A stretch of 64,000 nucleotides of DNA from Sanghuangporus weigelae (lineage: Eukaryota; Basidiomycota; Agaricomycetes; Hymenochaetales; Hymenochaetaceae), in assembly GCA_033182465.1 (NCBI GenBank), contig CP137320.1:1302001-1366000 (forward strand), in the 5' to 3' direction. A program made the position numbers and the translations under genes. A model generated the notes under the pieces. That model made no database searches and had not been told where the DNA came from. It saw only the letters and a program-made list of their open reading frames with translations. Each line of letters opens with the position of its first letter. Positions within the stretch are counted from its first letter, which is position 1. Shown here one piece after another: positions 4,539 through 61,960 of the stretch.

Positions 4539-5225
4539 TAACTCAAGTCTTTGTCAGGGCAAGAAACTGACTCTCTAGACTTACAGAACCTTGCTTTACA
4601 GCCATTTTCAAAATACCTGAGAAATGTGACATTCATGTGCTTTTTTGATGCACATCTGGTCTCTGAGCCCACATAAATGAAAGAATGCCAAGTTTCTCAA
4701 CAGTGAAGGCACCATAAACTGCCAAATAGCAACCTAAAAAAAGGTCTCTTTAGGGCGCTTTGGCAGATATAAGAAAGATTGCAGATGATGCAGTATTGAT
4801 CTTAGGAGGAAAAAGGCAACAAATTTGGAAAAGATCCTTGGCATCAGTACTGAACTTTGTAAAAAGCATAACTCAATAGCCACTGCTTGCAAAAATCTAG
4901 TTGACATGCCATAAATCACTTTATGTCTTCCTTCTTGTGCAGTCCAAAACATTTGTGCCTACGCTGCCTGCAGAGAGTGCAACAAAAATTTTCTTGTGGC
5001 AGAGTTGGTACAACTACTTGTCATACACGGACATGGTTTTAAACACAGCTCCTTGATTAGATATCGCAAAAATCTGGCTGGCATACCATAAATCACTCTG
5101 TATATTTCACTTCACACTATCTAAGTTTTGTGCATCTACAGAGCTCACAGCGAGCAAGACAAAATATTTATTCACGAGTGTGAGTCAGCAGCACTATATG
5201 TGCACGACGCAGCACGCACAGACGT
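4539..5225. other. Non-coding flank with a diverged direct duplication, probably 5' part of the mariner-like element
   Basis: No gene is visible. Two diverged copies of a roughly 130-bp segment lie at about 4870-5000 and 5045-5175; both contain CCATAAATCACT and a later AACAAAA/GACAAAA box. The last four bases, ACGT at 5222-5225, form the left TSD of the next element. Sequence across that insertion (from 7194) leads into a Tc1/mariner-type transposase, so this is probably its upstream region. Confidence 0.4.
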
Positions 5226-7189
5226 TGTCGGTCGGCGGTGTCATATCTGAAGGTGCTACAGATGTCCGTCCTACTAAGGGTGCTGAATGTATGAAGGGAC
5301 CTCCAAAAATGGGATGCCGACGCTATCAGACTCTCAAAGACCTACTACCCGGCAGGTGCCAGGAACCGTCGGAGACGTAATGGATGGGTCTAGGGATGCC
5401 GCTGGATAAAGGGAATAGGATAACAGGACCGCCGCTTGAGAGGGGGGATCACAGGGGGCTGCCGACGTAGCGTAAACACAATAGATAGAGAGAAAGGACC
5501 GTATAAGATGAATATATGGACTAAGCTGGAGTGAAAGGCTGGAAAGGGCGCTGCAGGGGTGTATGATAGGAAGACTGTGTCGCCAGGTGGCCGCCGACGT
5601 TGAATAGAGGGGTGCCGGATTGAGAGGGAGGCTGCACAAATCTGCCGAAGTAGCGTAAACGCGATAGATGAAAGGAAAAGACCGTATAAGATCAATAGAT
5701 GGGATAAACTGGAGTGAAAGGCTGGAAAGGACGCCAAAGGGGAGTCTGATAAGAAGCCTGGGTCGCCGAAGGGTCGCCGATGTCAAATAGAGGGGCGCCG
5801 GACAGGTATAAAGTGTGGGGAGGAGGCTCAGGGTTAAATCCCAAGCCCTACTCACTCACTGAACGTCAGAGCGGCAGAGGCGTACCGGAGGCGGCGAAGG
5901 CAAGTAGAATGTGGAGTCAAACAAGAGGAGATGTCAAGGATAGTATATAGTCAAGGGGGAGGCTCAGTACATGAGGGGAGACTCAGAGTGAGGGATATCT
6001 CAAACTCTGGCGCTCGGTCTGGTACATGCTCTTGGAATCCTTGCTAGGCTTGGAATCCCTGCTAGGCTTGGAATCCTCGCTAGGCTTGGAATCCTCACTA
6101 GGCTTGGAATCCTTGCTAGGCTTGGAATCCTTGCTAGGCTTGGAATCCTTGCTAGGCTTGGAATCCCTTGCTAGGCTTGGAATCCCTTGCTAGGCTTGGA
6201 ATCCTTTCGTCTACAAGCTAGTATAAGCTCTATATATACTCTACTGCTGTCGCCGACACATCCTACTGTCTGACAACATCTCCTGAGTCATCTGGGTCGC
6301 CAAGGGCCGCTGCCGGAGCGCCCAGGTGAAATCTGAGAGCGGCAACGTGAGGGGGGCATCCAATCACATGAAATATTGAGTATCTGCAATAACACGGGCG
6401 CCGGCGGAGTTGGGCTTGGCGGCGCGAGTCGGTGGCTTGGCACGCCGATGTACCACATGCCTACCTTCCATACATGGTCTAATGGGGGCCGCCGCGTCAG
6501 GGGGAAGTCGGGAAACATCGGAACCGATGATTGGAGGCTGATATCGCGTATATGAGACAAAGGGCGCATCAGCCGATGTCCCTGAGGTGTCTGATGCATC
6601 GGCGGCACTCAATACAGAGTGTGGGCGATCCCTAGTGACTACTATGAGTGGCCGGAGCGGCAGTGCTGTGGGGGACTGCCGGACTGGTGGCAGATACATC
6701 GTAATGAGGCATGTAAGCACATATGACAATATATAGCTCCCTAGACAATGGGGGACTGCTTGGTAAGCTGTAGGAGGCGTCGGCGAGGGTACCTGAGGAT
6801 GTCTGAGTGTCCGCCGCATTGATCGGCACCAAGGGGGGCCGACTCGGAGGCATCCAGAGTCGCCGCACGGCTGTACGTATAGTAAATCATAAGATCGGCG
6901 GCACGTAGTCACTGAGGGATGTATCCTATAGTGCCTGGTGCTGGGTAGGAGCTGTCGGCGGACCTGTCTGAGTGTCGGGGAGCCATCGGCAGATCGATTT
7001 GGGTCATAGGAGGGCGCCGCAGTACAGTACGTGTGCTGGAATCAATGGATACGTGCTCAAATGATGTCCCGAGTGCAATAGGAGTGTGCCCTCACACTCT
7101 CAGGTGTCGGCAGTGCTGGGATATGGTATCTGCAGTAAGAGGGAGCCATAGTATGAGTGTACTGGCACAGGAGGAGCCAGTGCGCTACA
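5226..7189 (+). mobile_element. LTR-like element, family B, copy B1 (1964 bp)
   Basis: It starts TGTCGGTCGG, ends GTGCGCTACA and is flanked by perfect ACGT duplications (5222-5225, 7190-7193). TG...CA ends with a 4-bp TSD and no coding content suggest a solo LTR or a non-autonomous element. ORFs of 100-180 codons inside are not conserved among copies and resemble no known protein. It holds a TATATATAC motif near 6232 and an 18-bp tandem array. A class II Ginger-like origin (TGT...ACA ends, 4-bp TSD) is an alternative. Confidence 0.8.
6031..6205 (+). repeat. 18-bp tandem array in B1 (10 units)
   Basis: Ten head-to-tail units of about TTGCTAGGCTTGGAATCC, 18-19 bp each, with single-base variants. 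The same site holds about three units in copy B5 (near 32135-32178) and none in B2, B3 or B6, so the array expanded within the family. There are no spacers, so it is not CRISPR-like. Confidence 0.9.
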
Positions 7190-7193
7190 ACGT

Positions 7194-7738: not shown

Positions 7739-10700
7739 TGTAGTAGGTGGTGTGTGTCTCTGAAGGCACTACCAATGTCCGTCCTACTAAGGGTGCTAAA
7801 TGTATGAAGAAGCCTCCAAAAATAAGATGCTGACGCTATCAGACTCTAAATCCTCACTACCCAGCAGGTGCCAGGGACCATCAGAGATGTGATGAATGGG
7901 TCTAGGGATGCCAAAGTATGAAAGGGGTAAGCTAATAGGGCCACCGCTCAAAAGGGGGGATCACAGGAGGCTGCCAACGTGGTGGAAACTCGGACATAGG
8001 GTTGGCAGGAGCGTATGAGATGAATATAAGGGATAAAATGGAGTGAGTGGGTGGAGAAGGTGCCGCTGGGTCATCTGCTACTATGCCTGTGTTGCTGGAT
8101 AGCTGCCGACGTCAAATAGAGGGGTACAGAAATGAGGGGGAGGCTACACGAGTCTGCTGAAGTAGCGTAAACGCAATAGATAAAAGGTAAGGGTAGTATA
8201 AGATAGATATATGAGCTAAGCTGGAGTGAAAACTGGAAAGGGCACCACAGGGGAGTCTGATAAGAAGGCTGGGTCGCCGAAGGGTTGCCGACATCAGATA
8301 GAGGGGCACCGACGACGCACAAGAGGGGTGGAGGAAGCTTAGGGTTAAATCCCAAGCTTCTGCACACTTGCTGAATATCAGAGTGGCCGAGGCATATCAG
8401 AGGCGGTGAAGGCAAGTAGAATGATGAGTCAAGCAAGAGGAGATGTCAAAGATAGTATATAGTCAAGGGGGGAGCTCAATACAAGAGGGGAGACTCAGAG
8501 TGAGGGATATCTCAAACTCCAGCACTCGGACTGGTACATGCTCTCTTCCTCTAAGATGATCTCTCGTCTACCAACCTAATATAAGCTCTATATATACTCT
8601 GCTGCTGTTGCCGACATGTCCTACTGTCTGACAACATCTTCTGAGTCATCTGGGTTGCCAAGGGCCGCTCCTGGTGTAGACTATCAGACCCTCTTAAGCA
8701 GCGGCGAAGGCGACGGCGTTCGACCACAGAGAGGCGTCGGTGGTGTCAAAGATCAGAGAGGTAAGAAGGGGTCCAGCTCGTGGCTAAGCCCCCTGGACAG
8801 CTCGATGCCGCGGCAAACAATTTGACTTGGAACCACTGCCGCCGATTGGAATGCACGCTCAGTCATAGGGGAGAGCTCAATCATAAAGACTAGAACACAG
8901 TCGGCGTACAAAGGGGTGCCGCTGATAGCGCATGGGACAGAGGCGCCAACGATCACTAAGAGAGTGACGTTGTTGCCAATCACCATAAAGAGAACTTGGT
9001 TGGCGATTGAGTGTAAGTTCTCGGTGTCATGGATAAGTAGTAGAGTGATGGTGTTGTCAGGTTGTGCGGGCATCGCCGATTACCAGGTGAGCGACAGTAT
9101 TGCCGATTGTCAAGGAAGTGATGACGTTGCCGATTCCCAAGACTGGGGATAACTCTGCCAATCACTTGCACAGTGGTGGGTAAGCACGTGCCCCTGTTAT
9201 TACCCAAATGGGAGCAGAGTCTTGCATCGGCACACGGTCTTCGGCAGAGGTGATAGAGAGTAAAGCGACTAATAGAGAGGAGAGGAGTGTACTGGGGTCT
9301 ATTCTGGACTACTTCTCTTGAACACTACATATATGAGGTTAATATATACTGGGGAATACTGGTGAAGAGCGTAACAGATGCGGCGATGGTGATAGTGCAT
9401 CACAGGCGTGCAATTGGGGCACGCCGCAAAGCTGCCAAGACACGGGCAAATGCCGATCGGTCTGGCAGTGATTGACGCAGCGCATCATATCATTGGGTGC
9501 ACTTGGATTGCTAAGTGGTCGCACTACACAAACATGAAATGTCAGGGGAAGCAATAATACTAAAATGGGGAATACGCGAGTGGCCGCCGCATCCGACAAC
9601 GGACTCAGCGTGCGAAGTGGCATAGTATGAGCATGAAATGTGGTACCTAGGACCTTATAAAACCTCTAACCGATGTCGGATAAGCCAGTCAACAGGAGCT
9701 GACAAATATTCCATCAGCTATATGGTTTGATATACTTTCACCGCTGTAGCGGATACATCTGCCGCAGTGTCCCAAGCACCTGCATATCAGAAGACGCGGC
9801 TGGCCAAGCGTACTCAGTTTGGGAAGTCTGGAGGGTCCAGGTATCTCATCTATGATGCCAAGATGGGTTGGAGAGGTTGCCCAGAGATGTGTAGTGGTGA
9901 CGCCAGGCATGCGGAAAGAGGCAACTGACGACGTGATTGCACGTCGGCGCAGCAGAGCGGCAGCAGTCCAACGGATGTCGCCAGTCTGCTTGAACTGATG
10001 CCTGGAGTAACTTCATTTTTCTTGATTATCTGGAGGTTTGCCTAAGGGTGTCTGGTTTGAGAGAGGCCGAACTCACTTTCGAATGAGGGGAGACGGTGGC
10101 CCTATTGGTTGAGCGGCAAGTCAAGGAGCAGCACTCGGAAAGTCTTAAGGAGTGGCGGAGGTGTAGTGGTGTAGTGCGCCGCACTTGCCTAAACCGGTAC
10201 ATCGGTACAGGCCCCTCAGTACTCTGTACAGTATACTATCGTGCGGCGACCACTACACCTCTGCCGCTCCTTATGACTATCCAACCGCCGCTCCTTAATT
10301 CGCCGCTCGACTAATAGGGCCGCCGACTCCCCTCATTCGAAAGCAGGTTCGGCTTCTCTTGAACCACACACCCTTAGAACAACCTCTAGACAGTCAAGAA
10401 AAATGAGGTTACTCTGGGCACCAGTTTAAGCAGACGGGCGACATCTGTCGGAACCGTGGTCCCGATGTATTGTCACGTCTTCAGTTGCCTCTTTCCGCGT
10501 GCCCGGTGTAGACTATCAGACCCTCTTAAGCAGCGGCGAAGGCGACGGCGTTCGACCACAGGGAGGCATCGGCGGTGTCAAAGATCGGAGAGGTAAGAAG
10601 GGATCCAACTCGTGGCTAAACCTCCTGGACAGCTCGGTGCCGCGGCGGACAATTTGACCCGGAAGCACTGCTGCCGATCGGGATGCGCGCTCAGTCATGG

Positions 10701-10859
10701 GGAGAGCTCAATCGTAAGGGCTATGGTATGATCTGCGTATAGAGGGGGCGCCGCCGATAATGTACGAGACAGAGCCGCCGACGAGTCAAGATGTCGGCGT
10801 CGCGAATAAGTAGTAGAGCGACGGCGCTGTCGAGTCCTGCGAGCGGCGGCGATTACTAG

Positions 10860-10992
10860 TAGAGCGACGGTGCCGCCGGTTACCAGGAGAGCGACGGTGT
10901 CGCCGATTACCAGGAGAGCGACGGTGTCGCCGATTCCCAGGAGAGCGACGGTGTCGCCGATTCCCAGGAGAGCGACGGTGTCGCCGATTGTC
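10860..10992 (+). repeat. 27-bp tandem repeat in E2 (about 5 units)
   Basis: Consecutive near-identical units contain GAGAGCGACGGTGTCGCCGA followed by TTCCCAG or TTACCAG. Because 27 is a multiple of three, the array yields periodic ORFs on both strands, but these are a by-product of the repeat. E4 and E3 hold fewer units (near 12250-12310 and 18830-18920). Confidence 0.85.
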
Positions 10993-11352
10993 AAGAGGGC
11001 GATGGCGCTGCCGATTCCCAGGACCGGGGATAGCTCTGCCGATCACTTGCGCAGTGTCGAGTGAGCACGTGCCCCTGTTATTCCCTTAAACGGGGGCGGC
11101 GTCTTGTGACGGCACACGGTCTTCGGCGAAGGCGATAGAGAGCAAAAGGGGCTAACAGAGATGAGAGGAGTGCACTGAGATCTATTCTGAACTACTGCTT
11201 CTGAACACTACATACATGAGGTCTATATATATTGGGGAATGCTGGGGAAGAGCGTCACAGAGACGGCGACAGTGATGGCGCGTCACAGGCGTGCAATCGG
11301 TGCGGACCCGAAGATCGGGGCGCGCCGCGAAGCTGCCAAGACACGAGTGCGC

Positions 11353-12665
11353 TGTAGTGCGCCGCACTTGCCTGTACCGGTACGTCGGTACAGGCCCCTC
11401 AGTACTCTGTACAGTATACCATCGTGCGCCGATCGATACACCTCCGCCGCTCCTTAAGACCCTCCAAACCGCCGCTCTTTGATTCGCGGCTCAACCAATA
11501 CGTCCGCCGCCCCCCGTCCTTCGAAGACTTCCCAAACCGAGTACGCTTGGCCAGCCGCACTTTCTGATACACGGGCGCCTGGAACGTTGCAGCGGATGTA
11601 TCGGCTACGGCGGCGGAAGGATATCGAACCGTATAGCCGATGGAATATTCGTCGGCTCCTGTTTATTGGCTTATCCGACGTCGGGTAGTGGTTTTACAAG
11701 GTCCCAGGTACCACGTTTCATGTCCATACCATGTTGCTTCGTGCGCCGAGTCCGATTGTCGGACGCGGCGGCCACTCGCGTATTCCCCTTTTAGTATTAT
11801 TGCCTCCCCTGACGTTTCATATTCGTGTGGTGCGACCACTTAGCGATCCGAGCGCGCCCGATGATGATGCGCCGCGCCAATCACCGCCAGCCCGATCAGC
11901 GCGCGCCCGTGTCTTGGCAGCTTCGCGGCGCGCCCCGATCTTCGGGTCCGCACCGATTGTGCGCCTGTGACGCGCCGTCACTGTCGCCGCCTCTGTGACG
12001 CTCTTCCCCAGCATTCCCCAGTATATATAGACCTCATGTATGTAGTGTTCAAGAGCAGTAGTTCAGAATAGATCTCAGTGCACTCCTCTCGTCTCTATTA
12101 GCCCTTTTGCTCTCTATCGCCTCCGCCGAAGATCGTGTGCCGACACAAGACGCCGCCCCCGTTTAAGGGAATAACAGGGGCACGTGCTCACTCGCCACTG
12201 CGCAAGTGATCGGCAGAGCTATCCCCCGTCCTGGGAAACGGCAGCGCCATCGCCCTCTTGACAATCGGCGATACCGTCGCTCTCCTGGCAATCGGCGGTA
12301 CCGTCGCTCTACCAGTAAATCGCCGCCGCTCGCAGGACTCGACAGCGCCGTCGCTCTACTGCTTATTCGCGACGCCGACATCTTGACTCGTCGGCGGCTC
12401 TGTCTCGTACATTATCGGCCGCGCCCCCTCTATACGCAGACCATACCATAGCCCTTACGATTGAGCTCTCCCCACGACTGAGCGCACATCCCGATCGGCA
12501 GCAGTGCTTCCGGGTCGAATTGTCCGCCGCGGCACCGAGCTGTCCAGGAGGGTTAGCCATGAGTTGGATCCCTTCTTACCTCTCCGATCTTTGACACCGC
12601 CGACGCCTCTCTGTGGTCGAACGCCGTCGCCTTCGCCGCTGCTTAAGAGGGTCTGATAGTCTACA
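11353..12665 (-). mobile_element. LTR-like element, family E, copy E4 (reverse, 1313 bp)
   Basis: On the minus strand it starts TGTAGACTATC at 12665 and ends GGCGCACTACA at 11353. It is flanked by perfect GCGC duplications (11349-11352, 12666-12669) and lies inside E2, the innermost layer of the stack. It is the short subtype, like E2. On the plus strand a CAGTATATATAG motif at about 12018-12029 is a possible core promoter. Confidence 0.85.
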
Positions 12666-13674
12666 GCGCGCTGATCGGGCTGGCGGTGATTGGCGCGGCG
12701 CATCATCATCGGGCGCGCTCGGATCGCTAAGTGGTCGCACCACACGAATATGAAACGTCAGGGGAGGCAATAATACTAAAAGGGGAATACGCGAGTGGCC
12801 GCCGCGTCCGACAATCGGACTCGGCGCACGAAGCAGCATGCTATGAACATGAAACGTGGTACCTGGGACCTTGTAAAACCACTACCCGACGTCGGATAAG
12901 CCAATCAACAGGAGCCGACGAATATTCCATCGGCTATACGGTTCGATATCCTTCCGCCGCCATAGCCGATACATCCGCTGCAACGTTCCCGGCGCCCGCG
13001 TATCAGAAAGTGCGGCTGGCCAAGCATACTCGGTTTGGGAAGTCTTCGAAGGACGGGAGGCGGCGGACGTATTGGTTGAGCCGCGAATCAAGGAGCGGCG
13101 GTTTGGAAGGTCTTAAGGAGCGGCGGAGGTGTAGCGGTCGCCGCACGATGGTATACTGTACGGAGTACTGAGGGGCCTGTACCGACGTACTGGTACAGGC
13201 AAGTGCGGCGCACTACACCGGTGTCACCGCTTCACATCTCTGGGCGGCCTCCCCAAACCATCTTGGCATCATAGACGAGGTACTCAGATCCTCTAGACTT
13301 TTCAAACCGAGTACGCTTGGCCAGCTGCGTCTTCCGATATGTGGGCGCTTGGGACATTGCGGCGGACGTATCCGCTACAGCGGCAGAAGTATATCGAACC
13401 GTACAGCCGATTGAATGTTTGTCAGCTCCCGTCAATTGGTTTATCTGACGTTGGCTAGAGGTTTTACAAGGTCCAAGGTACCACGTTTCATGTTCATACT
13501 ATGCCGCTTCGCGTGCCAAGTCCATTGTCGGATGCGGCGGCCACTAGCGTATTCCCCACTTTAGTATTATTGCCTCCCCTGACGTTTCATATTCGTGTGG
13601 TGTGACCACTTAGCGATCTAAGCACGCCCGATGATATGATGTGCCGTGCCAATCGCCACCAGCCCGATCGGCAC

Positions 13675-15190
13675 TGAAACTCCTGTGGGTGTTCTGATAC
13701 CGGACAGGGAATGTAAAGTTCGAGGGGCTGCCCTAGAATACCTTTGAGTGGTCAGCAGAGAGTTACACCTAGACCAAAGGTAAGCAGAAATGAAGGGATA
13801 AGGGAATATATGAGGGAAAGATTGTATGAGGGCTGAGGAATGCGTGGGAAGTGCTCGAGGAAGGGTCCCGAGGATGGACTTCTCCTGAGATTGATGGTGG
13901 CGGTGTGAAGGCTAAATCGACTCTCCGGCTCAACTGCAAGCTCTGGACTAAAGCCGACAAACACAAGGCATAAGAACTAATCTAAACTTATGCTACGCTA
14001 GTCGAACCACCAACCCAAATGTGACTAATTGACCAGGCTAACACACCGGGAAGCGACGGCAGCCAATTTCACTCATAGTCTAAAGTGTCAGAACGTGATA
14101 CGATGGACAAGGAAGGATAACTAGGTGGGTCGAAACGTGATATGAGGCACAGAGGGACTATATGGTGATGGAAAGGGATGATATGGTGTCCTTTTCTGAC
14201 AACAGTGGAGAGGGGAAGGTGTTGCAAGACCAAAGGCACGCGGCATGCTAAGTAACGGGGTTACGAGCAAAACCAGCAAAACAGATCAGAACACGTAAGG
14301 GGGTTTCGGTACGGGTGATTGGTTTGAGAGGAGTCCTTTACACAAACACAGCAAACTATACAAACGTACAAACGGCTCTGCTGCAAAGAGAGATCACTGA
14401 TCGACTGTACAGAACACGAAATATTGTATATTAGACTTTAGAGACGAGAGAGTCCACTATGAACAAGTAGAACTCAAAGCTGGGGGACTTGAGACGATCT
14501 GAGAACTGCTCAGCTCCAACTAAGCTGTCCCCCCACTATAAGAGTCGTGCTATATTTATACTAAACGTCCAAGACTGAGCCTCCTTTCGGTCAGAGAACA
14601 TAAGCCATAAGAAAAAGGGGAATGCATATCACTCTCTGCAAAGGAGAGGGGAACACATATTACTATCTACAAAGGAGAGGGGCGCATAGGAATGGTTAAG
14701 GGACACATAAAGCAGAAAGAAACAATACTAAGCATGATCGGAACGAGAGCATATAGAAATAAAAGGGACGCATATAGAAAGGTGAGGGCACAAGCAAAAC
14801 CTTCGGAACCGGGTGTCTTTGAGCGGAATGAGTCGGAACTTGGGGAAAGGACTTGGAAAGGCCTCGGCTAGCTTAATAAGGCAAATCTGCAACATTTTGA
14901 ATGGGAGAGGGACTGTGGACGACGTTACAGGGTCAAATCTCTTTGTCAGGAGTACAGATCTGAGATCCGGAGACTTGTGATTGATGCGTGTAGGATCGTT
15001 GCGTGATTCTTCCGCCGTGTCTGATATGATGGCCAATCACGGAATGGTGCACGTGCCATTTAGACTATGGCATTCTTGCTAAGTCCACTTGTTCCAGTGA
15101 AACCAGTCAAAACTGGGCGAAACCAGTCAGAACACCGCAGAACTAGTCATAACGACTTCGTACGCTCCCAAGCTTTGGTCTTACTCTTCA
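13675..15190 (-). mobile_element. LTR-like element, family A, copy A1 (reverse, 1516 bp)
   Basis: On the minus strand it starts TGAAGAGTAAG and ends GGAGTTTCA. The flanks are GCAC (13671-13674) and GTGC (15191-15194), both CpG-decay products of GCGC. Uninterrupted host sequence is visible in E4 near 11895-11912. The layout matches A2 and A3: a TATAAATATAG promoter-like box in the middle and no coding region. Probably a solo LTR. Confidence 0.85.
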
Positions 15191-15270
15191 GTGCACGCCC
15201 ATGTCTTGGCAGCTTCATGGCGTGCCCCGATCTTCAGGCCCACCCCGATTGCGTGCCTGTGACGTGCCGT

Positions 15271-17071
15271 TGTAGTGCACTAGCTCCTCCTGTGCCAGTA
15301 CACTCATACTATGACTCCCTCCCACTACAGATACCATATCCCAGTGCCACCTACACCTCAGAGTATGAGGGCATACTCTTACTGCACTCGAGACACCATT
15401 TGAGCATGTTTTCACCAATTCCAGCACATGTACTGTACTGCGGCGCCCTCCTAAGGCCCAGATCGATCCGCCGATGGCTCTCCAACACTCAGACAGGTCT
15501 GCTGATAACTCCTACCCAGCACCAGGCACTATAGGACACATCTCTCAGTGACTACAGGCTGCCGATCTTTTAATTTACCGTATATACAGCCTTGTGGCGA
15601 CTCTGGGTGCCTCTGAGTCGGCCCCCTATGGTGCTGATCAATGCAGCGGACACTCAGACATCCTCAGGTACCTTCGCCGATGCCTCCTACAGCTTACCAA
15701 GTAGTCCCCCATTGCCTAGGGAGCTATACATTGTCATATGTGCTTACATGCCTCATTACGACGCATCTGCCACCAGTCCGGCAGTCCCCCGCAGCACTGC
15801 CGCTCCAGCCACTCATATTAGTCACTAGGGATCGCCCACACTCTGTGTTGAGTGCCGCCGATGCATCGGACACCTCAGGGACATTAACTGATGCGCCCTT
15901 TGTCTCATATACGTGATATTAGCCTCCGATTATCGGTTCTGACGTTTCCTAACTTCCCCCTGATGTGGCGGCCCCCATTAGACCATGTATGGAAGGTAGG
16001 CATGTGGTACATTGGTGTGCCAAGCTGCCGACTTGCGCTGCCAAGCCCAACTCCGCTGGCGCCCATATTATTGCAGATACTCGATATTCTATGCTATTGG
16101 ACACCTCCCTCACATTGCTGCTTACAGATTTCACCTGGGCACTCTGGCAGCAGCCCTTGGCAACCCAGATGACTCAGGAGATGTTGTCAGACAGTAGGAC
16201 ATGTCGGCAACAGCAGCAGAGTATATATAGAGCTTATATTAGGTTGGTAGAGAAGAGAGGTCATCTTAGAGGAAGAGAGCATGTACCAGACCGAGCACCG
16301 GAGTTCGAGATATCCCTCACTCTGAGTCTCCCCTCATGTACTGAGCTCCCCCCTTGACTATATACTACCTTTGACATCTCCTCTTGCTTGACTCACCATT
16401 CTACTTGCCTTCGCCGCCTCTGATATGCCTCGGCCGCTCTGACATTCAGTGAGTGAGTAGAAGCTCGGGATTTAACCCTGAGCTTCCTCCACCCCTCTTG
16501 TACCTCGTCGGCACCCCTCTATCTGACGTCGGCGACCTAGGCTTCCTATCAGACCCCTCTTTGGCACCCTTTCCAGCCTTTTACCCCAGCTTAGTCTATA
16601 TACTCATCTTATACAGTCCTTTTCTTTCACCTATCACATTTATGCTACTTCGGCGGACTCGTGTGGCCTCCCCCTCATTCCTGTACCCCTCTATTTGACA
16701 TCAGCGGCTATCCAGTGACACAGGCATCATATCAGACGACCCAGCGGCACCTTCTCCACCCACTCACTCCATTTTATCCTTTATATTTGTCTTATACGAT
16801 CCATATCTTCCTGTGACCGAGTTTATACCACATTGGCAGCCTCCTGTGATCCCCCCTTTCGAGTGGCGGCCCTATTAGCTCATTCCTTTCATACTGTGTC
16901 ATCCCTATACCCATCCATTATATCTCCGACAGTTCCTGGCACCTGCCGGGTAGTGGGGATTTAGAGTCTGATAGTGTCGGCATCCCGTTTTCGGAGGTTT
17001 CTTCATACATTCAGCACCCTTAGTAGGACGGACATTGGTAGCACCTTCAGAGACACACACCACCCACTACA
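15271..17071 (-). mobile_element. LTR-like element, family B, copy B3 (reverse, 1801 bp)
   Basis: A complete copy. The plus strand begins TGTAGTGCAC and ends CACCCACTACA, flanked by perfect CCGT duplications (15267-15270, 17072-17075) inside E3. The empty site is seen in E4 near 11975-11990, where GCGCCGTCACTGTCGCC is uninterrupted. It lacks the 18-bp array of B1. This is the cleanest intact reference for family B in the window. Confidence 0.9.
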
Positions 17072-17098
17072 CCGTTACCGTCGCCGCCTCTGTTATGC

Positions 17099-18581
17099 TG
17101 AAGAGTAAGACTAAAGCTTAGGAGCATACGAAGTCGTTACGACCAGTTTTGCAGTGTTCCGACTGGTTTCGCCCGGTTTTGACTGGTTTCGCTAGAACAA
17201 GTGGACTTAGCAAGAATGCCATAGTCTAAATGGCACATGCACCATTCTGTGATTGGCCATCATATCAGACACGGTGGAAGAATCACACAACGATCCTACA
17301 CACATCAATCACAAGTCTCCAGATCTCAGATCTGTACTCCTGACAAAGAGATTTGACCCTGCAATGTCGTCCACAGTCCCTCTCCCATTCAAAATGTTGC
17401 AGATTTGCCTTGTTAAGCTAGCCGAGGCCTTTCCAAGTCCTTTCCCCAAGTTCCGACTCATTCCGCTCAAAGACACCCGGTTCCGAAGGTTTCGCTTGTG
17501 CCCTCACCTTTCTATATGCGTCCCTTTTATTTCTATATGCTCTCGTTTCGATCATGCTTAGTATTGTTTCTTTCTGCTTTATGTGTCCCTTAACCATTCT
17601 TATGTGCCCCTCTCCTTTGTAGATCGTGATATGCGTTCCCTTTTTTATAGCTTATGTTCTCTGACCGAAAGGAGGCTCAGTCTTGGACGTTTAGTATAAA
17701 TATAGCACGACTCTTATAGTGGGGGGACAGCTTAGTTGGAGCTGAGCAGTTCTCAGATCGTCTCAAGTCCCCCAGCTTTGAGTTCTACTTGTTCATAGTG
17801 GACTCTCTCATCTCTAAAGTCTAATATACAATATTTCGTGTTCTGTACAGTCGATCAGTGATCTCTCTTTGCAGCAGAGCCGTTTGTACGTTCGTATAGT
17901 TTGCCATGTTTGTGTAAAGGACTCCTCTCAAACCAATCACCCGTACCGAAACCCCCTTGCGTGTTCTGATCTGTTTCGCTGGTTTTGCTCGTAACCCCGT
18001 TACTTAGCGTGCCGTGTGCCTTCGGTCTCACAACACCTTCCCCTCTCCATTGTCATCGGAAAAGGACACCATATCATCCCTTTCCATCACCATATAGCCC
18101 CTCCATCCCTCGCATCACATTTCGACCCACCTAGTTATCCTTCCTTGTCCATTGTATCGTGTTCTGACACTTTAGACTATGAGTGAAATTGGCTGCCGTC
18201 GCTTCCCAGTGTGTTAGCCTGGTCGATTAGTCACATTCGGGTTGGTGGTTTGACTAGCATAGCTTAAGTTTAGATTAGTTCTTGCGCCTTGTGTTTGTCG
18301 GCTTTAGTCCAGAGCTCGCAGTTGAGCCGGAGAGTCGATTTAGCCTTCGCACCGCCACCATCAATCTCGGGAGAAGTCCATCCTCGGGACCCTTCCTCGA
18401 GCACTTCCCATGCATTCCTCAGCCCTCATATAACCTTTCCCTCGTATATTCTCTTATCCCTTCATTTCCGCTTACCTTTGGTCAAAGGTGTAACTCTCTG
18501 CTGACCACTCAAAGGTATTCTAGAGCAGCCCCTCGAACTTTATATTCTCTGTCCGGTATCAGAACGCCCACAGGAGTTTCA
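17099..18581 (+). mobile_element. LTR-like element, family A, copy A2 (1483 bp)
   Basis: It starts TGAAGAGTAAG and ends GGAGTTTCA, with flanks ATGC (17095-17098) and ACGC (18582-18585), ancestral ACGC. The empty site is visible in E4 near 11990-12010. Together with A1 it forms a large inverted repeat around B3, which arose from two separate insertions and not from inversion. A frame of about 70-110 codons near the 3' end recurs in A1 and A3 but resembles no known protein. Confidence 0.9.
17695..17705 (+). promoter_or_regulatory. TATA-like core promoter of A2
   Basis: TATAAATATAG lies about 600 bp into the element, with a G-rich run (GTGGGGGGACAG) about 25-35 bp downstream. The same box occurs in A1 and A3, with one change in A3. 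Position and conservation fit a U3/R border of an LTR. Activity is inferred. Confidence 0.45.
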
Positions 18582-35749: not shown

Positions 35750-37348
35750 CAGTGGAGCATTCCACATCGGAACACTACCTCTATTGTCTCAGTCAGCAAC
35801 TCCACAGAATTCTGTCATAGTGGGGACAACCTTACAAAGAGTGGAGCAAAGCGCAGCAGGATGACAAAGGAACAGATGTAATGGTGGAGAAAGGTGGAGA
35901 AAAGTGGAGCAAAGTGGAGACAGGATGAGTAAGAAATAGGACAGAAAATGGAATATCTGAGAGCATAAATAGCTGTAGAATTAGGCCCTCATTTCCCCAT
36001 CTTTCGATCCTCTTAACACACTGGTGTAAAGTCCTAACTAGACTATTACTGTGTGCTTTGTACTATCACGCCTCTTGGAAATCCCAATCTGCTTTACTAT
36101 CACCTCGTATCTGAAAGTATCCATAACTCGGACCGCGACTAGGAAGGCTAGTAAGGGACCGCGTGGTATAGCCAGACGTAGGTAGATTAGATCACCTCTG
36201 CACAACATACCGCTGCTTAGGCAAAAGGATCGAACTGGTGTAACCCCGGGCCTACTCCCTAACAAGATCGAACGGATGTACCAGTTGGCGAACTCCGATC
36301 GGAAGTCCAAACCTCGGAGACCACTTCGGCAAAGTCCGAACAACAGAGCGCACCTCGTGGAACGTCTGGGATGAAGGTACGCGATCATTGGGTACCTCAA
36401 AACAGGTCGGAATGATCCCTGGCAGTGTGAAACGCTGATGAAAAGGCCTAGGGTCCCTTTAGAAGTCTAGGTCCAGGCTTCAGAGTGCTGATATCCACTC
36501 GGGTGACTGAGGCGGAGGTCGGCGAGTGGTAGTGTGACAAAGTATGGACAACGAAATATGGCGTGGCACCTATTGCGCAGTATTAATGGGTCTTTGGGGT
36601 CTTGGAATGTGACATATGTGCAATGGAAAGTGAAATGGGCTGAGGCAAGATATGTACGAAGTCTCGGGCGTGTCCTAAGGTATGGTGGACCACTCGGAAG
36701 GATCGAATCAAGTCGTATACACCCTTTGTGACTGTTGGAGTCACTCGGGCAGGTGATACACCAGTGTGTTGGACACTGGTGAAGTATGTACAATACTCGA
36801 CCGCTGACACCCAGAATAGCGGTGTGCGCTACACCGGACTGGTGGCAGATATATTGTAATGAGGCATGTAAGCATATATGATAATATATAGCTCCCTAGG
36901 CAATGGGGGACTGCTTGGTAAGCTGTAGGAGGTGTTGGCAAGGGTATCTGAGGATGTCTGAGTGTCCATTGCATCGATTGGCACCATGGAGGGCTAACTC
37001 AGAGACATCTAGAGTCACCACAAGGCTGTATGCATAATAAATCATAAGATCGGCAACCTGTAGTCACTGAGGGATATGTTCTATAGTGCCTGGTGCTGGG
37101 TAGGAGCTGTTAGCAGACCTGTCTGAGTGTCAGAGAGCCATTGGCAGATCAATCTGGGTATTAAGAGGGCGCTGCAGTACAGTATATGTACTGGAATTAA
37201 TGGAAATGTACTCGAATAGTGTCTAAAGTGCAGTAGGAGTATGTCTTTGCACTCTGAGGTATAGGTGGCACTGGCATATGGTATCTGCAGTCGGAGGGAG
37301 TCATAGTATGAGTGTGCTAGCATAGAAGGGGCCAGTGCATTACAGCAT

Positions 37349-39047: not shown

Positions 39048-39097
39048 TAAGAGGATTGAAAGATAGGAAATAAAGGCCTACTTCTACAACTATTTAT

Positions 39098-39383
39098 TGT
39101 TGTGAGGGAGCGAACACGAATATCCGAGAGGAAAACTCTCTATTATTTTGTTATACAGTTTTTACAGCGGTTTTATAATACTGAAGGGATCTGAGACATA
39201 AGTCGGGATAGAACGGTAAAGAAATAGAATGGTAATACAATTCAAAAAGCGAAAGAGAATTGACAAACAAGAATGACAAGCACAAAACCGAAAGAATGCA
39301 AATGATTAATAAATACCATATATTCATTCTAAACGGCAAGTGAGACAACTCGATCGGAACTTCGACAGTTTGATAATCCAACA
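39098..39383 (-). repeat. Copia 3' LTR (286 bp)
   Basis: In element orientation it starts TGTTGGATTATC and ends CCTCACAACA. It follows a polypurine tract GAGGGGGAG (39392-39384 on the minus strand). Same length and sequence as the 5' LTR. Confidence 0.95.
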
Positions 39384-39390
39384 CTCCCCC

Positions 39391-42300
39391 TCAAAGTGTG
39401 CGAAGTCCGAGTTCCAAAGCAAAATGTTTGACTTTGAAAGATGGCAGAGGTTTTGTAAATATGTCGGCTGTCATGTCCTCGGTAGGACAAAACACGAGTC
39501 GAATTTTATTTTCCTCGATGAGCCATCGAATGAAGTGATATCGAACATCGATATGTTTTGTTTGAGCGTTGAACTGACGTTCTTTGGTAATGGAAATCGC
39601 GGATTTGTTGTCAGAAAAGATGGTTGTTGGTTGAAGAGACGTCTTGAATAATTGATAAACAAGTTGGCGAAGCCAAATTGCCTCTTTGGCTGCATGGGTG
39701 GCGGCAATGTATTCAGATTCGGCTGTAGAAAGCGAGACGATTTCTTGTGTTTTCGAATACCACGATATGGCTCCTCCATTCAGAATAAATACATTACCAG
39801 AAATTGCTCGACGTTCTTCCTGCATGGTTCCATCTGCGTCCGTAAAGCCTTTCAACTCACGTCCTTGAACTCCTCCGTAGGTCAACCAAAGATTTCTGGA
39901 ACCTTTTAAGTACGCGAATACACGTTTGACGGCCTTCCAATGATCTGGCCCAGGGTTCACGGAAAACTTGGATAATAGTGTTACAGTAAATGCTATGTCG
40001 GGCCGGGTTGCTAAAGCCGCGTACATTAGGGACCCAATCGCCTCTCGATATGGTACGTCCCGCATGGTGCCAAGTTCTTCGGCTAAGTGTGGAGATTGCG
40101 AAGAGGTTAAACGAACATTTGGGTCCATGGGACTGGACAGCGGTTTTAGCTCGTCAAAGTTAAATCGACGTAAGATAGCATCGATGTAGGCCCGTTGAGA
40201 AAGAGAAAGGCTTCGATTTTCGCGATTCCGAATGATTTCAATTCCGAGCAGCCAATGAAGTGATCCAAGGTCAGTAATGTCGACATATTCTTGAAAGCGT
40301 TGCTTGAACCAAGCTATCTGTTTGCCACGTGTTCCAGCAATAGTAAAGTCGTCGACATGAATCACCACAATAAGAATTTTGTCTTTGTTGTGGAGGAAGA
40401 AAGCCCCGAGATCGGCATCCGAGCAGGTAATCCCAATTTATTACAAAGGATCCACGTGACTTTTTGATACCATTTTCGTCCAGACTGCTTAAGGCTATAT
40501 ATGGGTTTCTTCAGCTTGTATACCTCGGTTTTGCTCCTCGCATATCCTGGTGGCGGCCTCATGAATATGTCCTCTCCGTCATCAAAGTGGCCATTTAGGT
40601 AAGCACTTTTAACTTCAATTTGTTCCAATTCGAGGTCGTAAAGTGCTGCCATGGCCAGGACGGCTCGGATAGTAGAAAGTTTCGCGACAGGTGCGTATGT
40701 TTCAAAAAAGTCGACTCCTGGGACTTGACTGAAACCCTGTGCCACTAACCTTGCTTTATATCGTATAGGCTTCCCAGCAGCGTCCTTCTTCACCTTGAAG
40801 ACCCACTTGGAACCTACGATGTTGGTTCCTTTAGGTACGTGGTCGCATTTCTCCCATGTACCAGCTGATTCTAATGCGTGTATTTCTTCTTTCATAGCTT
40901 GCTCCCACAGTCTCCATTCGGGGAGTCTTTTCGCTTCTGATAGGGAGTGTGGTTCAACGACGTCCACGTCATCCATAGCGGCCATGAATGCATACTCCTC
41001 ATCGTAGTCGTCCACCCTCTCATCAATCACATCCGCAGCCGCAGCTACTGCTGCGCGCATGCCCCGCGGCAGACTCCTATTGGATCCCTTGCCGGCCAAT
41101 ACTCTCCTAACGTATGGAGAGGGTTTCTTAATGCGTTTAGAAGAGTTCTCGTTGTCCTCATCGACGATCGTCTTGGATTTGTAAGTCTCTTTTTCTTCGT
41201 TTTTGTTTTTCTCGCTAGGGGTCTCCTTTTCTTCCTCCCTCTCAAGACGAATCGATTTGACGTCGCTCGGCGAAAAGTATACACTTCGTTCCACGGTGAG
41301 TGATTTGTTTTCTGGCCAATATATGCGTGATCCATTCAATGCTGAATCATATCCAACCCATCTGCCCTCACGGACTCTTTTGTCCAATTTGGATCCACTA
41401 GTGTCGTGTACCCAGACTCAAGAGCCCCATTCGGGCAATCCCTTCAAGAAGGGTTTCTTTCCGTAAAGTGCCTCGTATGGCGTTTTATTTCCTAATGGTC
41501 TGGTAACGACACGATTCTTCAACCATGCTGCATGCTTGCAGCATTCGGACCACAAGTTCTTCGGCAAAATGCTGCTATGCAGCATTGAACACATTTTCTC
41601 GCCAATTGTCCTATTGACTCGTTCAGCAACTCCATTGTGTTCGGGAGTATCATGAACGGTGAGCTTCTGTTCTGTTCCCTGAGATTTGAGAAACTCAACA
41701 AAGTCTTTCCCAGTGAATTCTCCCCCTCGATCGGAATGAAGTCTTTTTATTTTAACGCCATGTTGCGTTTCGGCCCACTTAGCAAACATTTTGTACGAGT
41801 CGAAAGCGTCTTGTTTTGATCGTATGATTGCCAGGTATGTAAATCTTGTGGCATCATCTGTAAATGACACATAGTAACGTTTGCCTCCAATCGATTGGAC
41901 AGGTGAGGGTCCCCAAAGATCGGTATGAATTTCATCACCGAAATTTTCTGCTAACTTGCTAGATCGAGCTTTTGTTATCTGGAATTGAGTAGCACGGCCA
42001 TATAAACATGAATCACATATTTTGGGCGCAGGTACTGACTGGTCTAGCTGGATTCCTTCAACAAGACCCTTCGTTATCAACTGGGTGGCAGATTTGGGCG
42101 ATATATGGCCCAATCTCGCGTGCAACTGATCGACAGTGAGTTTCTGCCTCTCATCTTCATCATTGATCAAGTATGTAGCAGAATCGACGTTGAAACGGTA
42201 TAGACCACGTTCAGTACGAGGTATGTCAGCGATTTTCCTTCCTTCTGGATCGATAATGATGCATTTTCCGTTTCCAAAAGTCGATTCGTGTCCCATTAAA

Positions 42301-43900
42301 TCGAGACGGCCCACTGAAATTAGGGTAGATGTCACTCGAGGTGAGTACCACGCATCCTTCAATTTTATCTTTGACGCTGAATCTCCATTCGGTAGTTCTA
42401 TCTCGATAGTTCCTTCTCCAACAGCGTGGAACGGCTGTCTATTCGCTGCACGAAGTAACTTCGACGGAACGGTACGAAACGAGATTTATTTGGAGAAAGG
42501 TGACGTGTACTTCCAGAATCAATGATAACTTGACTAATTCTTTCTTCTTCCTCGGGTGTATCCTCTGTCACTTTGGCTGAGAGCTCGACCATAGGATAGT
42601 CGTTTTCGTCTTTATCAAACCAGTCTTTGAAACCAGGTGGGCACTCGACACCTTCTTTCACATCCTCATCTACTGCAGCACACCAATCCGATTCGTCCTC
42701 AGAATCCACAGTTACGTTAGCAGACTCTTTCATGTTTCCATCCTTCGATTTAGGCTTTTCTGTCTCAGGTGGTAAGTTATTCATTTCGCGTTTTGGTCCA
42801 CTGTAAGATTGATCTTTTCTTTCTTTGAGCTTCTTACAGTTCTTGACAATATGCCCTGGTTTGTGGCAATAACGACACGTCCTCGTTTCCTTTCGAGGTC
42901 GTTCCTCAGCAATGAGGGATACTTCCTTGCCTTTGGTATCTTGTTTTTGGTCAGTTTTTCGTCTTTCACGTTCTTTCGACTCTCGTTCGGATTCGACTGA
43001 TATGAGATGGATTAGAGCGTCTAGATCGATGGCTCGGATTTTTCGAATGGTTTCCTGGGAAATTTGGCCACCATAAAACGAAATTGCATGACTTGCTGCT
43101 ATTTCAGCGGCCAAAACTTGGGTCGAAGCGTACTTGGCCAATCCAGGAGGAATGGAGTTGATGATAGTCGACCTGTAAGCATCATCGTCAATTGTTACGC
43201 CGCATGCTGCTAATGTTTGCTTTTTGAGGCGTAATTCATTCAGGAATTGCTTCACATTCGCTCCTTTGGGGCATTTCGACTCCATGAATTTGTTTTTCAA
43301 TGAGGTTTGTGCAAACATCGATTTGTCGGTATATTCCTGAACTACTAATCTCCATTTCTCAGCAACTGTACGACATGTCAAGATTCGGACAATAGTTGTA
43401 TCAGGGAGCTTCGAGGTAAGCAAATAATTTGCTGTATCTTCGTCTTTGTCCCATGCATCCTGACGAATTGACAATGTTAGATCGTCATTGTCATCGTCAT
43501 CAGCTGGAGGAACCCCCGGGGATGGTGGAAGAGGCGGTAGGCTTTCTATAGGCGGTTCAGGCTGGGGCGGCGGAGCAGTCGCTGCTCCTCTGCCTCTGCC
43601 CCTACCTCGACCAGAACGCGTTTGGATTCCCTCAGGAGCGACAGGAGGCGGTTGAGGGGCTGGTGCAGAGCCCGTCAAACCCAAATTCGGCCAACCCAAG
43701 GGGCCGAATGACTGAGCTGAAGGCTGAATAGGCGGGGGAACGACTCCAGCCGCTTCAGGACGAGTGGACGACCCATCAAAGTGGTCCCAAACTCGTTTGG
43801 CACGTACAGCGGCCTCAAGACGTATAGCGAATATCGTCCAATTCTCCCCACTAGGCTGTAAAGACGGCACGGACTTCAGTTCGTCCAATGACAAGGACAT
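39391..43900 (-). pseudogene. Copia gag-pol polyprotein, three lesions
   Basis: Gag starts at 43900 (MSLSLDELKS). It holds a zinc knuckle CRYCHKPGHIVKNC (about 42870) and a protease DSGSTRH (about 42525). Integrase shows the H-x3-H/C-x2-C region (near HARLGH and CDSCLYG) and a DDE core. RT carries HVDD (about 40361, usually YVDD) and RNase H ends with DIFTKPLP and LELGLRTL. Lesions: a frameshift in protease near 42475, TGA at 41418-41420 after integrase, and a frameshift in RT near 40370-40440. Given identical LTRs these are recent or could be sequencing errors. Confidence 0.9.
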
Positions 43901-44000
43901 ATCGGTGAGTTTCTCCTTTTCTCTGTAGCGGTCTCAGGCGCTAACACTCGGAATATTGCTTTGATTGAAAAATAGCGGACTCTGGCGCACGATCAAGCAA

Positions 44001-44011
44001 GGCTCATAACC
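44001..44011 (-). promoter_or_regulatory. Copia primer-binding site matching initiator tRNA-Met anticodon stem-loop
   Basis: The plus strand reads GGCTCATAACC, the anticodon stem-loop of eukaryotic initiator tRNA-Met (CAU anticodon). The element RNA is therefore complementary to an internal tRNA site and not to the 3' CCA end. Drosophila copia is known to use such a half-tRNA primer; its use here is inferred. Confidence 0.7.
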
Positions 44012-44297
44012 TGTTGTGAGGGAGCGAACACGAATATCCGAGAGGAAAACTCTCTATTATTTTGTTATACAGTTTTTACAGCGGTTTTATAATACTGAAG
44101 GGATCTGAGACATAAGTCGGGATAGAACGGTAAAGAAATAGAATGGTAATACAATTCAAAAAGCGAAAGAGAATTGACAAACAAGAATGACAAGCACAAA
44201 ACCGAAAGAATGCAAATGATTAATAAATACCATATATTCATTCTAAACGGCAAGTGAGACAACTCGATCGGAACTTCGACAGTTTGATAATCCAACA
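44012..44297 (-). repeat. Copia 5' LTR (286 bp)
   Basis: Identical to the 3' LTR. The primer-binding site abuts its inner edge without a spacer. Confidence 0.95.
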
Positions 44298-46330: not shown

Positions 46331-47678
46331 TGTAGTGCACATAGGTGCTTCTGTAGCGTCAGCGGACTATCCCTCAGGTCACCCGAATGAGCCAGTATGC
46401 CCACAGCCCCCATCTGACGACTAGATCACATCACTAGACTCCCAAGGTCACAGAGTGACCATTGTACACTGCCCTTCCATGTGTTTCAGACTATTCAGCG
46501 CATTGTGACCTTTCCAATGTATCGCACCCCACAGGACCTTTCGAGCTGAGCACAGGACTGTCACCCAAAGCAGATATGACTCACCCGACGCCCTGACCAT
46601 ATGGCATACCCTAGGGTTGCATACCTGCCTTACATGGTGTCCCAGACAGAGAAATGTACTTTGATTCGTCCGGACTCTTAACCCTTTCATTCCTTGCAAT
46701 ATTCCGATGGCTGACAGACAGACCCTGAACACCCAATGCATCATCCGAGGCGGCTGTGCAGGTCCGGACTAGTTGGATAAAGGTCCGGGCTACACAGCCA
46801 CTCCATCCAGGCATCCCGAAGCTTCGAACGTTTCATGTTTTGACCTGTTTTACCTTCCGTTACACGTTTCACACCTTCGGACTCACCCCTTTGACTCAGA
46901 TTGGTAGATTAGACCCCCGATTGAGTACCCTGACAGCCTCGGGCTCGAGTCTGAGACCGTTGTGGCCTATTCCGACCCATTTCCGTTGACCCTTTCGTCT
47001 TATATGCTTGTTTTGTTGCATACATGACTTGGCTTGGTAGTACAGTATAAAAGGATGCATGTACTAGCTAGACCGACAGTAGTGGGTGGTAGACGACCAC
47101 TGTAGACTCCCAGTATACCTCAATGGAGTAGAGTTCACCCTCATTTACTCTCTTGCTTCACCTCTCTCCATCTTTGCTCTTAGTTCTTGATTCCGACCAC
47201 AGCCTGGCGCTGTATGCCCATTTTATGGCCCTTCCACTCATTCCTCAACTTCCCCCTGCCTGGCTGAGCATCCGATGACGTCTCCGGACCCTTGTTAGTG
47301 TTCTGAACATCCACCCGAGTCCAGTCCGGACCTCCCGACGTTTCTACAACATCAGCTCTGGCACACATTTCTGACACTCCGGACCATCGATACACGTTTC
47401 CTCCATCCTCCATGCACTTCCCCCAGCTCGTTCAGGTTTGGACCTTTGTTTCCTGGTTTGGACTACTCCCTATTTGATCCCCTCCATCATACGGTCATCC
47501 GGTTGAGCTTTGCAAGGCCTATTCAGCCTTTCGGACGATCCTGGGCATGCTCCTGTGTCATCTTCGCGACTTCCCTGTCATCTGTGATGCTCCCTCTCAT
47601 CACTGAGACCTAATTGGCTCTCTTTGGGGTCGAACAGCCTACCAGCCATCGCCCTTCAGAATCCTGATCAGCCATACA
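46331..47678 (+). mobile_element. LTR-like element J (1348 bp)
   Basis: Starts TGTAGTGCAC, ends GCCATACA, with GCAG on both sides (46327-46330, 47679-47682); removing it restores the B sequence at GGAGGCGGC-AGGCAAGTAG. A TATAAAAGG box at 47046 suggests the + strand is sense. No coding region; not similar to the other families apart from termini. Confidence 0.7.
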
Positions 47679-48723: not shown

Positions 48724-50040
48724 TGAAACTCCTTCGTACTTTCTGTTAGCAGAGGAGTGTCACAGTTCTGTTGGGGGCTGTCCTGTAGGATCAAGACGAA
48801 TGGAATGGCGGAAGGATGACTATAGGCTAAAGCTGGGATGATTTCCGAAGGGTTAAGCTAAGTTCCGAAGCGGTTTCGGAGGGGATGAGTGAGTTTGAGA
48901 TTTGAGGCTGCTGAAAGTATGCGGGGGTGGGGATTTGATCGGAGAAGAGATGCTAAGAAGCAAGCGGGAGAAGTCGAAGCGAGGGGGATCGGCGGCGGCG
49001 ATACGATGGTACGAACAATATCCTCACAGGTAATCCTTCAATGGATTCGAACCCTGGGGACTAGAAGACGATGAGACGAAGCTTGGGACGATATTCCCAA
49101 GGCTTAGAACGAAGCTAGAGTGATCCTACGAGGATCCGATACGATGTGACGGGATGCGACAAAACGCGAGGTATTCCGCAGCGTAACGATGCGAAACGAC
49201 GCGGAAACGGAGCGGGGAGACGAGAGCTGATTAGGGAGACGAGTAGTTTTCGAGTGAAGATTCTCTAACAGCAACGCGAGTCGAACTGAGCACACTAATC
49301 TCGGAACGCAACTGTTAAGCAGAGGTTTCGGGACGTGTGAAGCAGAACTATCGTATATTTGATAGAGGCAGGGGAGTCGAAGTGAGTACAGTGAGAGTTG
49401 AAGTGATTCGACTATAGCAACGAGAGAAGACGAGCAGGACTAGAAATGGGCTTTCAGATCCGGACTCGACTCCTGTACTGACTGAACTGTCCCCTCTACG
49501 CGAATAGATTGTCTATTTATAACATTGTCCACCCTGAGCCTTCGAAGCATCAGGGAGCATATACGAAGAGAAGTCGGAAGGCATATCATAAAAAGGGGAG
49601 CATGGAGAACAAAAGACGAGGTGAACATATCTGGAAAGTGGCGAGCATATAGATCATAGGGCATAAAACAAAATATGAGCGCATATAGAACATAAAGGGG
49701 AAAAGTCGGAGCACAATGCATCGGTTCGAAGCTTGGGAGGCGTCGGTGGTTGAGTCCGAGTTTCTCAATTCAAACCTCGAGATTGGGACTGATAGGACGA
49801 ATCAACTGAGCCTTCCTTTGTGGAGTCGACTGGGTGGCTCAGGTGTCCGATCTGCTACCCTTGTGTGATTTCCAACGTCGTAAGTCCTCTTCAGGCGGCA
49901 GTCCGATGCGCGAGGCTGTAATAGACTGTTCCGCTTCGAATCTTGTCGATCCGCGCTGGGTTAAGCTGTTACGACGCGGAACGTGGCGGAATATGTGTCA
50001 TGTGCGTGATTTCGGACTTAGCGTGTTGGTGCTTCTTACA
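48724..50040 (-). mobile_element. LTR-like element I (1317 bp)
   Basis: The plus strand starts TGAAACTCC and ends GCTTCTTACA, with perfect GCGT duplications (48720-48723, 50041-50044) in B6. The TGAAACTCC end equals the reverse of the family A 3' terminus, so I and A may be distant relatives. Non-coding; short frames only. Confidence 0.75.
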
Positions 50041-51166
50041 GCGTAGGCAGCACTGGGATATGGTATCTGTAGTGGGAGGGAGTCATAGTATGAGTGTACT
50101 GACATGGGAGGGGCCAGTGCACTACAGCGCTACAGATGTCTATCCTACTAAGGGTGCTGAATATATGAAGAAATCTCTAAAAATGAGATGCCAACGCTAT
50201 CAGACTCTCAAATCCCCACTACCTAGCAGATGCCAGGAACTGTTGGAGATATGAAGGAGGGATCTAGGGATGCCACAGGATGAAAGGAATAAGCTGACAG
50301 GGCCATCACTCGAAAGTGAGGATCACAGGAGGCTGGTGTCATAGTATGAAGCTGGATACAGGATTGCAAGAGGGGTATAAAATGAATATAAGAGATAAAA
50401 TGGAGTGAGTGGCTGGAGAAGGTGCTGATGGGTTGTCTGGTAGGATGCCTGTGTCACCAAAGGGTCGCCGACATTGAATAGAGGAGCACAGGAATAAGGG
50501 GGAGGCTGTACGAGTCTGTCGAAGTAGCGTAAACTCAATAGATGAAAGGAAAAGATTGTATAAGATTAATATATGGGATAAACTGGAGTGAAAGGCTGGA
50601 AAGGATGCTGCAGGGGAGTCTAATATGAAGTCTGGGTTGCAGAAGGGTTGCTGACATGAAATGGAGGGGCGCCGGACAGGCATAAAGTGCGAGGAGGAGG
50701 CTCAGGATTAAGTCCCAAGCCCTACTCACTCACTGAATGTCAGAGCGGCAGAGGCGTATCAGAGGTGGCAAAGGCAAGCAGAATGGTGAGTCAAGCAAGA
50801 GGAGATGTCAAGGATGGTATATAGTTAAGAGAGAGGCTCAGTACATGAGGGGAGACTCAGAGTGAGAGATATCTCGAACTCTAGTGCAGTCTACTAGTGT
50901 ATGCTCTGCTACCTCTAAGATACCATCTACCAACCTAATATAAGCTCTATATATACTTTGCTGCTGTCGCCGACATGTCCTACTGTCTAACAACATCTTC
51001 TGAGTCATCTGGGTCACTAAGTGCAACTGCTGGAGCGCCCAGATGAAATCTGCAAGTGACAATGTAAGAGAGGTATTTAATGACATGAAATATTGAGTAT
51101 CTGCAATAATACGGGCACCAGTGGAGTTCAGCTTGGCGGCACAAGTTGGCAGCTTGGCATGCCAAT

Positions 51167-60516: not shown

Positions 60517-60520
60517 GTGT

Positions 60521-61958: not shown

Positions 61959-61960
61959 AA

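Follow-up and report, generated by a model that had tools for sequence, protein, structure and literature searches.

The window considered here is a 64,000-nucleotide stretch of the genome of the basidiomycete Sanghuangporus weigelae (contig CP137320.1, hereafter C3, positions 1302001-1366000; genome of 33.87 Mb in 13 contigs), which harbors sixteen bounded insertions of six repeat families, A, B, E, F, I and J. These families are long terminal repeats (LTRs) of ~1.3 to 2 kb with TG...CA termini, mostly present as solo LTRs. Their ends have only 2 to 7 terminal bases in common, and TATA-like boxes are present (all by eye); one end, TGTAGCGCAC, is common to B, F and J, and another, GGAGTTTCA, to A and I. 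An earlier note, made from the letters of the window, had described these insertions as flanked by 4-bp target-site duplications (TSDs) of the form NCGN or decayed from it, and all 16 of the 16 flank pairs were re-found as noted, with boundaries redrawn.

All sixteen are solo LTRs. Family B comprises B1 (5226..7189, flanks ACGT/ACGT), B2 (7739..21692, GCAT/GTGT), B4 (29449..37344, GCAT/GCAT) and B5 (31510..33154, ACGG/ACGG), putatively on the minus strand, and B3 (15271..17071, CCGT/CCGT), putatively on the plus strand, the orientation of B1 being taken from the end common to F. E1 (8675..20815, CTGG/CCAG), oriented by comparison with other E copies that have GGAGA on one side, and E2 (10507..13217, CCGG/CCGG, starting one base left of the computed boundary) are probably on the minus strand, and E3 (10170..20731, GTGG/GCGG) and E4 (11353..12665, GCGC/GCGC) probably on the plus strand. 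By reference to a full A copy described below, A2 (13675..15190, GCAC/GTGC) lies on the minus strand and A1 (17099..18581, ATGC/ACGC) on the plus strand; A3 (34175..35676, CCGA/CCGA) is also on the plus strand. F1 (19063..20505, CCGT/CCGT), oriented from the GGAGA side of two other F copies (L051 and L054), and F2 (30725..36833, CCGG/CCGG) are on the minus strand, J (46331..47678, GCAG/GCAG) is putatively on the plus strand, and I (48724..50040, GCGT/GCGT) is assigned to the minus strand from the end common to A. Some of these insertions span thousands of bases because others are nested in them: B2, E1 and E3 are split by nested elements, B4 by F2, and F2 by B5 and by an LTR of a Gypsy element, D; E4 lies within E2. 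The site of F1 that corresponds to the B5 insertion in F2 is empty (read by eye).

Two elements of the window serve as a contrast: the LTR of element D (33252..36264, no strand assigned), which contains A3, has the 5-bp TSD AGATC/AGATC, and a copia element (39098..44297, minus strand) has TTTAT/TTTAT. The earlier note had attributed 5-bp TSDs both to copia and to the H elements, which was confirmed for the former and not reproduced for the latter, two near-palindromic elements of ~1.1 kb (27921-29008 and 37961-39050) without a matching TSD when each was bounded in two ways, four placements in all.

Beyond the window, the genome was searched family by family (F, A, B, E, I, J), at most 40 candidates being scored in each case, and counts are therefore lower bounds. 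For A, B, E and I, ten copies per family were chosen from the match lists with their flanks still unseen (mostly from near the top, with some rows skipped, and for B from full and two-part rows), and were bounded via 30-base junctions, except for one I copy bounded whole. F contributed 15 of its 30 loci and J 5 of its 10, which brings the total to 60 bounded copies outside the window. Excluded before the count were window copies (F L031 and L032, J L061), two F copies with GGAGA on one side (L051 and L054), one copy with an altered end (L056), ten F loci covered at the near end only and four partial J loci. The 120 flanks have at their 4-bp centre CG in 91 cases, CA in 14, TG in 13, CC in 1 and AT in 1, so that 118 of 120 are CG, TG or CA. 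Identical NCGN flanks occur on both sides of 28 of the 60 copies, and in 17 others the outer bases agree and at least one centre is TG or CA. By family, E has the same NCGN on both sides in 10/10 copies, B has CG on both sides in 10/10, and I is NCGN-type in 10/10; A and F, richer in TG and CA flanks, look older.

A degenerate pattern designed on one terminus of the B, E and F repeats matched the genome 182 times, against 2 for a reversed control, and the first 100 matches (contigs C1 to C6) were read with their letters. Positions -3/-2 hold 81 CG, 13 TG, 3 CA and 3 other dinucleotides; the three flanks with other dinucleotides all end in GGAGA, and the 97 flanks that do not are, without exception, CG, TG or CA. 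Counted over the 94 distinct 10-base flanks, CG is found in 77, compared with a dinucleotide frequency of 4.4% in the window (binomial P ~7e-87), and T is seldom seen at -4 (2%), as is A at -1 (7%), giving a palindromic VCGB preference. On this element side, TG (13) and CA (3) differ in number at the TSD centre, where symmetric CpG decay predicts similar numbers.

The CG signal might come from CpG-rich targets, or from nesting, instead of integrase choice, and many targets are indeed other repeats: joining the flanks of 40 insertions gave an uninterrupted match among the sequences compared in 21 (at most 4 mismatches in 28), and in none of the five pairs of this set whose outer bases differ. 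This origin is nevertheless extremely improbable. Among the 100 listed flanks, CG falls to between 0 and 10 of 100 at other offsets, compared with 81 at -3/-2. In the same genome, one LTR end of element D gave 233 matches, 43 with letters, 21 of which carry the same invariant flank, interpreted as the internal side and excluded; CG stands at -3/-2 in 1 of the remaining 22 (Fisher P 2e-12). Furthermore, a single position of an A LTR has been hit by both E (L095, GCGT) and B (L141, GCGC), with matches on both sides. Other shared or empty targets include a D-LTR position that agrees with both flanks of an E copy (L097) and with a single flank of a B copy (L133) and of an F copy (L035), and a B LTR inserted at ACGC/ACGC within an integrase gene on C3, whose relative on C7 is unbroken at that point. 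As a separate observation, C2 (~313-336 kb) and C6 (~778-802 kb) carry nested elements with identical flanks on both contigs, pointing to a segmental duplication.

That TG and CA flanks are decayed CG, as had been proposed, is supported by the F LTRs, in which CpG is the fast-mutating context. When 30 F copies are compared pairwise over their first 785 bases, without a consensus, a CG in one copy is read in the other as TG in 15.9% and as CA in 14.7% of cases, versus C to T changes of 5.0% in CpA, 3.5% in CpC and 1.4% in CpT. These flanks fit CG sites altered with age, in the way expected from CpG methylation; methylation at the time of insertion does not follow from this. An integrase that takes any pyrimidine-purine step, with CG merely its favourite and some TG or CA flanks original, is a possible though doubtful alternative. 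The spumavirus PFV (prototype foamy virus) prefers such steps at the centre, according to the accessible text of PMC4422553, and some pairs are alike on both sides, namely GTGC/GTGC (F copy L046), CCAG/CCAG (F copy L047), GCAT/GCAT (B4 in the window) and GCAG/GCAG (J in the window). Against this alternative stand the rapid decay of CpG in F LTRs, the occurrence of TA in 0 of the 97 flanks, and the fact that none of the 30 pairs from E, B and I has the same non-CG centre on both sides.

What kind of element carries these LTRs? The clearest answer comes from a full A copy on C10, whose 5' LTR (L157, 27-1409, ~100 bases shorter than its mate) turned out to be one row of the A-family search. ACGT stands before it and AGTGGAGCCCACGGCGAGG after it, with a TGG-initial stretch resembling a primer site 2 bases past the LTR; open frames on the plus strand come next. 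The second A LTR (C10:73342-74827) is preceded by CCCGGGAGA and followed by TCGG, and the two LTRs align in two parts, at 98.6% and 97.5% identity. Pieces of L157 exceed Pfam cut-offs for DUF4100, Asp_protease_2, RVT_1, two RNase H models and Integrase_H2C2, with zinc knuckles below cut-offs; the first and third pieces have no Pfam match at E 0.01. The frames are interrupted by stops and were read as separate pieces. Reverse transcriptase (RT) and RNase H lie upstream of the integrase, whose core motif stands in the next frame, the last piece reading VTDN...NGLVERRH (by eye). A pair of A LTRs enclosing pieces of protease, RT, RNase H and integrase indicates that A is the LTR of a Gypsy-type element. 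Toward the 3' LTR, the A internal region also holds an antisense open stretch (L154 1-1813, C10:59300-61112; MSTPEEINALV...), acidic and with glutamine runs.

The earlier note had called for an autonomous partner; a partner was seen for A and, less completely, for F, and none for B, E, I and J among the matches listed. For F, integrase pieces (C2:330710-333704) are followed by a same-strand F LTR at C2:335435, preceded by TGCCGGGAGA; integrase pieces on C6 also adjoin an F LTR (L051) with the same flank, and the two loci are probably one event, duplicated. In E, TAGAAGGAGA precedes two copies among the matches listed, and GGAGA flanks in A, E and F resemble polypurine tracts. For B, E, I and J, only single LTR-like copies were seen, and B, I and J showed no comparable sign of a partner; the membership of B, E, I and J would follow from the shared ends and the shared target rule. 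The repeats themselves are not coding elements, the longest open reading frames being 124 amino acids in an I copy and 96 overlapping an E copy (one copy each checked). Two other candidate partners were discarded: element D (1534-amino-acid frame), the commonest Gypsy among the matches listed, because of the 5-bp TSD at its window LTR, and a 1798-amino-acid Gypsy with a chromodomain-like end (by eye), which adjoins an A LTR, and which is a copy lying between the two A LTRs, bounded by a pair of identical 1540-bp LTRs of its own and by a separate 5-bp TSD, ATTTC, on both sides. The frame of element D (window 51168-62871) gave ~100 rows of near-equal score among the matches listed, and this family was likely active recently.

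When the last A frame served as query (142 of 162 candidates scored), at least nine strong rows came up, equivalent to six or seven loci, which, set against the 182 LTR-end matches of three families, implies that most copies are solo. Two related frames, L158 (C3) and L162 (C7), are 98% identical to each other, and show a D...D...E core and RYLGPF as in the GPY/F module (by eye); both reach the rve cut-off and L158 that of H2C2, SH3_Tf2-1 being below cut-off, and sequence matches in PDB are the PFV and Ty3 integrases. Among named relatives, the last A frame is best matched by one from Sanghuangporus weigelae (79% identity, with 67% of the query aligned). Of 530 matches, 120 were listed; the five organisms that these name (Sanghuangporus, Leucoagaricus, Agrocybe, Hypholoma and Hypsizygus) are all mushrooms. 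No Chromo model was found in the five L157 pieces (E 0.01) nor in L158, L162 and P0002 (E 1), L158 and L162 being cut short. A search with PF00665 (150 of 248 candidates scored) did not have the integrase of the A copy among the matches listed, and a scan of IMG/VR for relatives returned none.

Taken together, the six families are very probably LTRs of related Gypsy (Metaviridae) elements whose integrase makes staggered cuts, 4 bp apart, around CpG, and the role that the earlier note gave to an integrase in a CpG-centred rule common to six families is supported by the partner of A and, less completely, by that of F. Several observations weigh against this interpretation. Outer bases are unequal between sides in 13 of the 60 bounded copies, with NCGN-type centres, and the single full A copy is likewise flanked by two different tetramers, ACGT and TCGG; ectopic exchange between LTRs of different loci would explain both. 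L046, L047, B4 and J may be true TG or CA insertions, L036 and L065 have one non-NCGN-type flank each, and two F copies sharing a flank (L058 and L060) show CAGA on the left; in all, 30 F left flanks comprise 16 CG, 12 TG or CA and 2 that are neither. The three GGAGA flanks of the pattern search were set aside only after being seen. Finally, the last A piece, holding the integrase core motif, is without a Pfam match at E 0.01, and no pol-bearing copy of B, E, I or J appears in the genome matches listed.

The nearest precedent for the target site is found in Ginger1 DNA transposons, which, in the accessible text of PMC2836005, have a Gypsy-like integrase with GPY/F, TGTNR ends and 4-bp TSDs with a central CG, either CCGG (75%) or CCGT/ACGG (24%). 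These likenesses, and the fact that no LTR pair had been noticed by eye among the family matches listed, once made a Ginger1-type nature attractive; it is now improbable, and was dropped after the A copy with RT was found. Ginger1 elements have terminal inverted repeats of 40-270 bp according to the same text, whereas no long ones were seen here by eye, and LTRs are present instead. Their transposase is associated with OTU or Ulp1 and not with RT, whereas the A copy contains RVT_1, with RNase H and integrase pieces, and no OTU or Ulp1 domain in its five pieces; the GGAGA flanks also look like polypurine tracts. The 28 pairs of identical NCGN comprise 6 CCGG, 3 ACGG/CCGT and 19 other NCGN, thus exceeding the Ginger1 range given in that text. 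The likeness to Metaviridae (Ty3/Gypsy) lies in the LTRs, the protease-RT-RNase H-integrase order, H2C2, DDE and the GPF-like end, two TG...CA LTRs around a coding region being seen in family A only, in one copy. To our knowledge, a fixed CpG at the TSD centre is not a feature of that family.

Most LTR retrotransposons have TSDs of 4-6 bp, as stated in the accessible text of PMC12440569. Plant LTR elements with 4-bp TSDs share a GC-rich central dinucleotide with the present families, but the logo in the accessible part of PMC6911290 covers many families and has no strict CG. PlavakaA differs in its 2-bp TSD with TGT...ACA ends (PMC12730594, accessible text), compared with the 4-bp duplications described here. 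In the literature searched, mostly outside subscription papers, no fungal LTR element with NCGN TSDs was found, and a strict NCGN rule over six fungal LTR families is without precedent there; the specificity of Ginger1 and the GC-rich centres of plant elements, as given in the accessible texts, were already known.

PFV suggests how such a rule could operate. According to the accessible text of PMC4422553, it makes a 4-bp TSD on a bent target whose central step is unstacked, with pyrimidine-purine steps favoured. CG is one such step, and the integrases match in sequence; the PFV preference in that text extends to these steps generally, whereas nearly only CG is used here. After reverse transcription, the integrase would join both LTR ends to the target at cuts staggered by 4 bp across a CpG; as with PFV, the centre of the site would have to bend sharply, favouring a flexible pyrimidine-purine step. 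The lineage may have kept this geometry and added a base reading that admits almost only CG, disfavouring T before and A after. Later recombination between LTRs would remove the internal part and leave a solo LTR, and C to T change at CpG would convert old sites into TG or CA.

Does this integrase, or a host tether, putatively read methylated CpG? CpG in F LTRs mutates as methylated DNA would, and targets are often repeats. However, hypermutability may come after insertion, and no methyl-CpG-binding domain was found in the scanned pieces, which cover the integrase ends only in part, so that such reading seems unlikely. A lineage-wide fungal Gypsy integrase with a near-absolute need for CpG, putatively recognising its methylated form and thereby homing these elements to silenced repeats, is likewise a long shot. 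With CG at the centre of nearly every 4-bp site, these elements would lend themselves naturally to studying base recognition by an intasome, and whether CpG methylation steers insertion, and NCGN provides a simple mark for finding and bounding old solo LTRs.

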